Under the pieces are notes generated by a model. That model was not told the origin of the DNA, made no database searches, and saw nothing but the letters and a program-made list of their open reading frames with translations. This document shows positions 6,733-7,658 of a stretch of DNA of 34,347 bases, in pieces. Source of the stretch: Prochloron didemni P4-Papua_New_Guinea (GTDB taxonomy: Bacteria; Cyanobacteriota; Cyanobacteriia; Cyanobacteriales; Prochloraceae); assembly GCA_000252485.1 (NCBI GenBank), contig JH610546.1, forward strand, positions 1 through 34,347, in the 5' to 3' direction. The position numbers and the translations under genes were made by a program. The first letter of the stretch is position 1. Every line of letters begins with the position of its first letter.

Positions 6733-6835
6733 TCTAATACCAAATCCGGTTAAAAAAGTATAGTCAAAGCCCTAGACACTGTCTGGGTTACAGGCTGTTT
6801 TTTCCTCTACTCTGTAAAGCGGATTTGGTATTAGA
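6733..6835. mobile_element. 103-bp MITE-like element with 16-bp terminal inverted repeats
   Basis: Perfect terminal inverted repeats TCTAATACCAAATCCG at 6,733-6,748 and 6,820-6,835 enclose about 70 bases with no coding capacity of their own. Such short TA-ending elements are a common cyanobacterial MITE type, probably mobilised in trans by an IS630-like transposase (inference). It sits at the 3' end of the clan AA protease frame and supplies that frame's last ~20 codons and stop. Confidence 0.85.
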
Positions 6836-6984
6836 CCAAGCTCCACAATGATAGAGATCGGCAGACTCAGAAAGCCGTTAAATCCTGTATCAATAACTGC
6901 GTCAACAGATTTCAGCTGACTCCCACCTCTCACAGCAACGGAAATCACAGCCTCACATTGCTGGTTAACATGTCCCTGCATCAT
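6772..6984 (-). pseudogene. Clan AA (retropepsin-like) aspartic protease, C-terminally truncated by a MITE
   Basis: The frame starts with ATGATG at 6984, overlapping the stop of the upstream gene by 4 bases. It encodes MMQGHVN...EAVISVAVRGG and the catalytic motif VDAVIDTGFNGFLSLP (DTGF, about residues 29-32), as in small bacterial clan AA aspartic proteases. After GLIPNPLYRV the residues come from the MITE inverted repeat, and the frame stops inside the element. Relatives run to about 110-130 residues, so roughly half of the domain is missing. Since this type needs dimerisation through C-terminal strands, activity is doubtful. It formed a two-gene unit with the (also broken) gene at 6,981-7,658. 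Confidence 0.75.
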
Positions 6985-7658
6985 AGAGCATCTCTCAAAC
7001 TTCGTGCGCCAAAGCGATGAACAGCACGGTAGCCGATGCGAACAACCCAAGGTTGGGCATTAGGAATACGCTCATAAAGTTGTCGGGTAGCAGCCATCGT
7101 ATCATCTGCAAGCTCAAACGCTCCCGTTTCAATGTCGATCGCCACAATTTTTCCGTAGTTTCCGGCTTCAACTTGAGGTTTTATCTGGTTTTCATAAAGA
7201 TAATCACGACTCTCTTTCCGGAAAACGGAAGCCGCGAAGTTTTAACTCGCGGATGAAGTTGAGGAGGCACTTCGACTTCGCGGTCCCTGAGCGTAGCCGA
7301 AGGGCAGTGACCACGGATTTATCCGCTATCCCCTTAAGGGGAGGGAGACAGTAAAGCCCCCCGTAAACTCCCATTTCTGGGGTAAAGTTTGCCTCGCCAA
7401 GGTTATCGGTCGGTACTATCCAAGCCGCACTGCCTTACCCCTCGTAGAGCTGTTTAACGACTCGGTTCTAGAGCCGGTCACTGGCTCATCCCAGGGTAGG
7501 AACTTCAACGCTTCCCGATAACGTAGCTCCCATAAAGAGAACTTAGGCTAGTCAACTAGCTTTAGCTTTGGGGCACGAAGCCCCGCTGCAGAGGGCGCGG
7601 GGTGCTGACCTCGTTGGGCAAATTCCTCTTTACTGTAGCGGGGTTGTCGAACTGTCAT
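6981..7658 (-). pseudogene. Small conserved cyanobacterial protein, interrupted by a 399-bp insert
   Basis: Two exon-like pieces on the minus strand: 7658-7610 encodes MTVRQPRYSKEEFAQRG, and 7207-6981 encodes RDYLYENQIKPQVEAG onward, including GKIVAIDIETGAFELADD and VVRIGYRAVHRFGARSL. Removing bases about 7,209-7,607 restores one uninterrupted 92-codon frame, so the intact ancestor can be read exactly. Proteins of this sort are found upstream of clan AA proteases in many cyanobacteria (from memory) and are of unknown function. The 4-base overlap with the protease start supports an old operon. The insert contains stops in this frame, so no full-length product is expected unless the insert is removed. 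Confidence 0.8.
7209..7607 (+). mobile_element. 399-bp structured non-coding insertion (IS200/IS605-derived or omega-RNA-like?)
   Basis: The boundaries come from the interrupted host gene; a GAC is shared by both junctions (7,208-7,210 and 7,607-7,609), so the ends can slide by up to three bases. Left end: hairpins TTCCG/CGGAA (7,216-7,230) and CCGCGA/TCGCGG (7,232-7,252). Right end: CCCCGC/GCGGGG (7,581-7,602). Inside are CCCCTTAAGGGG (7,330-7,341) and GAGCC/GGCTC (7,471-7,487). The right-end context (GAAGCC, GC-rich hairpin, TGCTGAC) resembles right ends of IS200/IS605 elements, and a short frame ending ASPRLSVG...LPYPS-stop resembles some TnpB tails (weak). No transposase is present, so it would be non-autonomous, like palindrome-associated elements. 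Family assignment is an inference. Confidence 0.6.

Follow-up and report, generated by a model that had tools for sequence, protein, structure and literature searches.

A likely doubly non-autonomous IscB/HEARO-type element carrying a solo ωRNA in Prochloron didemni

We conclude that a 402-bp insert in Prochloron didemni P4-Papua_New_Guinea (GCA_000252485.1, contig JH610546.1, positions 1-34,347; this whole 34,347-nucleotide stretch is referred to as the window) is likely an IscB/HEARO-type transposon that is doubly non-autonomous, in which two ends enclose an ωRNA gene without a transposase or a nuclease. Standalone ωRNAs that work with IscB, an RNA-guided nuclease of the kind ancestral to Cas9, have already been published, and the window element joins this known kind; the less expected result is the frequent placement of related copies directly before start codons. 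Standalone ωRNAs are known, yet their natural history is little described. This one genome holds about 20 solo ωRNA copies and about ten iscB genes with differing natural guides, so that use of the RNA in trans is directly testable here.

The insert and the interrupted gene

The element lies on the minus strand at 7208-7609 and has exact ends, the 5' (ωRNA) end at 7609 and the 3' end at 7208, which are defined by the GTCAGCACCCCGC start shared among copies and by homologous empty sites. It contains no ORF. Homologue alignment and frame restoration delimit the two parts of the gene that it splits, a 5' part at 7610-7658 and a 3' part at 6981-7207, both on the minus strand. The first-pass annotation had called this gene conserved, and the family of this small gene indeed has matches in 56 of 100 relatives. 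With the insert present, the frame stops after 36 codons, and removal of 402 bp restores a 91-codon frame, MTVRQPRYSKEEFAQRG-DYLYENQIK. The first-pass annotation had instead proposed an exact excision of 399 bp and a restored frame of 92 codons. Its start and end coordinates hold, but its length and frame do not, because removal of 399 bp leaves one surplus codon (R) that is absent from the aligned homologues: these read RG-D or RG-N, where the shorter excision would give RG-RD. Empty sites, for which a search had been advised, are present, as homologues of the interrupted gene show the exact empty site; in the closest homologue, TTTGCCCAACGAG is followed directly by GTGATG. The GAC noticed at both junctions is there, but it combines the opening bases of the element with a coincidental match and is not a target-site duplication.

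The interrupted gene (6981-7658) belongs to a multi-copy family with seven matches in the genome and without a Pfam match, and a small ORF (6772-7050) adjoins it. Elsewhere in the window, two near-identical ORFs (361-648 and 946-1281) with QQGVQRGIQQG repeats apparently reflect a partial local duplication.

The ωRNA, its predicted guide and the element ends

In a cmscan search, the minus strand from 7609 to 7382 matched the HEARO RNA (RF02033) over the full length of the model (1-211 of 211), with E = 1.7e-24 and a score of 120 bits where the cut-off is 83; apart from a tRNA elsewhere, this was the one RNA family to reach its gathering score. HEARO is the ωRNA of IscB (PMC9755519). From this match we infer that the scaffold at 7382-7609 is an IscB-type ωRNA, for which guide-directed binding and cleavage by IscB are predicted. 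The interior had been likened beforehand to a conserved structured RNA, possibly a solo ωRNA, which would make the insert a non-autonomous element bearing a guide RNA if it belonged to a family of the TnpB or IscB type. The covariance-model match confirms the structured RNA, and the solo ωRNA without an ORF or a transposase agrees with a non-autonomous element; the IscB alternative stands, whereas the reading as a TnpB ωRNA was rejected, as cmscan found no TnpB-associated RNA family. The stretch suggested for a possible transcript, 7320-7609, holds the HEARO scaffold and three extra hairpins at 7329-7381.

Because the guide of an IscB ωRNA sits at its 5' end, that of the window ωRNA would lie outside the element, in the host gene. 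The position immediately 5' of the ωRNA gives a predicted guide, GAATTTGCCCAACGAG, at 7610-7625 on the minus strand, with an assumed length of 16 nt, as for IscB guides. The empty site in the closest homologue differs from this sequence by one mismatch and continues with GTGA. The target-adjacent motif, GTGA, lies beside the 3' end of the element (7204-7207, minus strand), and the copies with readable ends likewise precede ATGA or GTGA, which is partly by construction, since the end-finding pattern required [AG]TGA. An intact guide followed by RTGA was not found elsewhere in the genome, and paralogues of the host gene were rejected as guide targets (at least two mismatches and no NTGA).

Three hairpins on the minus strand adjoin the scaffold: CCCA-GAAA-TGGG at 7370-7381 (100% paired in 18 copies, with one covarying C-G/U-A pair), GGGGGGC...GTCTCCC at 7343-7362 (92% of cells paired, with one pair changed on both sides) and TCCCC-TTAA-GGGGA at 7329-7342 (92% of cells paired). 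The second occupies the site where IscB-bearing copies have iscB. In 18 solo copies, 90.9% of the cells in the HEARO helices and these hairpins are standard pairs. The covariation check that had been proposed gave two-sided changes in 15 of 78 pairs, whereas shuffles averaged 6.7, none of 500 reached 15, and slid controls did not exceed 8. These counts lean towards the structure, because it derives from the Rfam match to one of the 18 related copies, and a single subgroup of three copies accounts for much of the covariation, including several double changes. Taken by itself, the RNA fold of 7320-7609 is unexceptional (z = -1.2), so the structural support rests on the covariance model and the covariation.

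The first-pass annotation listed end hairpins and the lack of a transposase; the latter holds, and candidate hairpins are present at both ends. On the 7609 side, a plus-strand hairpin at 7581-7602 coincides with the first ωRNA stem, and its stem columns are conserved across copies; as folded DNA it is no stronger than shuffles (z = -0.8). On the 7208 side, CCGCGA...TCGCGG (7232-7252, plus strand) gives z = -2.8 in the DNA fold of 7208-7262, and a second hairpin lies at 7216-7230. A nested 49-bp repeat at 7267-7315, assigned to neither strand, has separate matches of 94-96% identity outside HEARO elements, on contigs C505 (two), C415, C397 and C530.

The right end had been likened to that of IS200/IS605, and membership of the ends in this group is plausible: like non-autonomous IS200/IS605 elements of the MITE/PATE type, the element has putative subterminal hairpins, lacks an ORF and is inserted beside a fixed tetranucleotide without target duplication (GTGA here, with an exact empty site, and ATGA or GTGA at other copies). 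Unlike them, it carries an IscB-type ωRNA, and no matching TnpA was identified. There is no TnpA inside the element, and among ten Y1 transposase (TnpA) matches in the genome there is no locus with matching ends nearby, so that part of the comparison fell away and a partner could not be assigned by shared ends. IscB-type nucleases rarely adjoin TnpA (PMC9755519).

The element resembles HEARO/IscB ωRNAs (RF02033) in its full-length model match, 5' guide and NTGA beside the insertion site, but differs from the usual HEARO in having three short hairpins in place of a downstream iscB. It shares the lack of an adjacent nuclease gene with the standalone ωRNAs that work with IscB (Altae-Tran et al. 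2021, as cited in PMC9581776); the solo form here is a complete element with ends and has a clade of its own. TnpB ωRNAs and IStron elements also have guides copied from the element flank, but TnpB guides lie 3' of the RNA, whereas the guide here is 5' and the RNA is HEARO.

Solo copies, resident IscB and alternative explanations

The recommended search for other copies gave 46 DNA matches to the element within this genome, of which a few are nearly full-length, and 37 matches to the HEARO covariance model, 31 over the cut-off; several copies are truncated, and the HEARO score of the window copy ranks among the lower ones over the cut-off. IscB (PF14239) has 14 matches in the genome. An iscB lies directly downstream in 10 of the 31 over-cut-off loci (one of the ten is frameshifted), and two further iscB remnants were detected, one frameshifted on contig C274 and one short fragment on C676. 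The remnant on C274 (1-1365) is divergent and is directly preceded by part of its own ωRNA. Intact iscB genes are present elsewhere in the genome, and the resident IscB has RRXRR and HNH domains and scores 486 bits to NF040563 (guided_IscB). There is no iscB directly downstream of the window HEARO, and the element was therefore classed as a solo ωRNA rather than an IscB element. The assembly is broken at many copies, so that a few solo copies, being at contig ends, have little sequence downstream.

Two scaffold types were distinguished. Type A, found before iscB, has CCTAGCAATAGG and then ATGCGTGTA..., and type B, found in most solo copies, has CCCAGAAATGGG followed by the extra hairpins. In a tree of 37 scaffolds (midpoint-rooted for drawing only), 22 solo rows, including the window copy and six rows from a second species of the genus, lie on one side of a branch with support 100/100, and 11 iscB-bearing rows and four solo rows lie on the other; these four look like separate later losses. 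An exact pattern derived from the solo scaffold was further found in Moorena, Okeania, a Prochloraceae MAG and a Planctomycetaceae MAG. Among 196 relatives, HEARO and IscB occur together in 98 genomes, HEARO without IscB in 8, IscB without HEARO in 13 and neither in 77; the HEARO search here used stricter filters, so that HEARO counts are at least these and absences are not firm. Co-occurrence is weak evidence for use in trans because both usually share one element, and its Fisher p-value is not independent evidence, since the genomes are also related. One relative (G052) has 18 HEARO matches and one weak IscB match, and many of its HEAROs are short and at contig ends.

PMC9581776, which cites Altae-Tran et al. 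(2021), states that standalone ωRNAs can function with IscB. For the window element, nuclease partnership, transcription and mobility are proposed as a model. A Y1 transposase (TnpA) encoded elsewhere would excise and insert the element as single-stranded DNA, and a host transcript running into the element would supply a guide that copies the site of insertion. IscB encoded by another locus would bind the solo ωRNA and cut the site (guide plus GTGA) wherever it stands empty, and repair from a sister copy would restore the element. The occupied site would be protected because the element places GTCA, not NTGA, beside the guide. Such retention by cutting of empty sites would parallel the retention role described for TnpB in IS605 (PMC11870625). 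Against this model, type-B scaffolds differ from the IscB-bearing type A, so that the resident IscB is at most a candidate partner for them.

The window copy could be decaying, and we consider it possible, though unlikely, that it has lost iscB, once moved only as passenger DNA and is now a dead relic drifting without function. Its rank among the lower HEARO scores would fit such a relic, as would unpaired cells in helices 6 and 8 and the several truncated copies in the genome. Against this, an all-solo clade has multiplied, spans two species and has conserved its structure across copies, which argues for long use of the solo form, even though the single window copy may be dead. It is improbable that a TnpA moves the ends and that the ωRNA has no guide role, persisting only through the double use of its first stem as a transposon end. 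That stem does coincide with the end hairpin, and the guide-adaptor region has been suggested to serve transposon mobility (PMC9581776), but covariation extends to helices well away from the end (columns 63-220), which an end-only role would not preserve.

A host regulatory RNA or riboswitch-like leader would be expected just before start codons and in sense orientation, which is where many related copies lie; this reading is highly improbable and was rejected on the exact ends and flanks of multiple copies before unrelated genes, and on the empty homologous site and the insertion of the window copy inside a coding frame. The insert is scarcely credible as an intron whose splicing would keep the gene intact: its in-frame length (402 = 3 x 134) and clean join would suit an intron, but the HEARO match is strong, no group I or II intron matched at the gathering threshold in cmscan, and the copies lie mostly outside coding frames.

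Insertion sites before start codons

Copies of the element and its relatives begin with GTCAGC and end directly before ATGA or GTGA. We counted how often this NTGA starts an ORF, with a threshold fixed at 60 aa and in three rounds. In the own genome, 10 of 19 copies with readable ends abut an ORF of 60 aa or longer that begins at the NTGA (one more copy precedes an ORF of 57 aa, below the threshold), as do 9/9 copies from the other named genomes and 11/19 in three further genomes. The pooled fraction (30 of 47) compares with a null of 14%, which was obtained from 730 intergenic NTGA sites of the sequence around the elements (binomial p about 1e-14). The copies counted are not all independent, and the count is exploratory and not blinded, as end patterns were chosen after reading the sequences and, for copies outside the own genome, the end strings were picked by eye; we therefore read the enrichment as real and its size as approximate. 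Many of the abutted ORFs are clear gene starts (tatA, secG, thrB, yqeY and PGM), and in several the family match begins almost from residue 1 (TatA, YqeY, SecG, YbaB, PGM, homoserine kinase and citrate synthase). The window copy is an exception to the pattern, since its GTGA lies inside a coding frame.

A Shine-Dalgarno sequence supplied by the element end was rejected as a general rule, because the match is good in some copies only: the mean in the own genome is -4.9 kcal/mol, compared to -3.0 in random NTGA contexts (p = 0.005), and element ends in other genomes are often U-rich instead.

We tentatively propose, as an idea somewhat short of an even chance, that HEARO/IscB elements, including solo ones, are found preferentially before start codons because NTGA doubles as a start codon plus A and because the external 5' guide would be transcribed from a host promoter only there. 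These sites would then be enriched through a retention by IscB that depends on expression, and the solo lineage would be a long-lived parasite of the transposase and nuclease of others. Selection against disruptive insertions also favors sites before start codons. The start-codon pattern is not mentioned in the literature searched, a search that lay apart from the first HEARO and IscB papers. If the enrichment holds, it would link the IscB target motif to transcription of an externally encoded guide and would explain how a transposon sits before housekeeping genes without destroying them. In one further locus (L145, contig C30, about 1466-1601), an end of a related element precedes ispG (gcpE) by a short distance.
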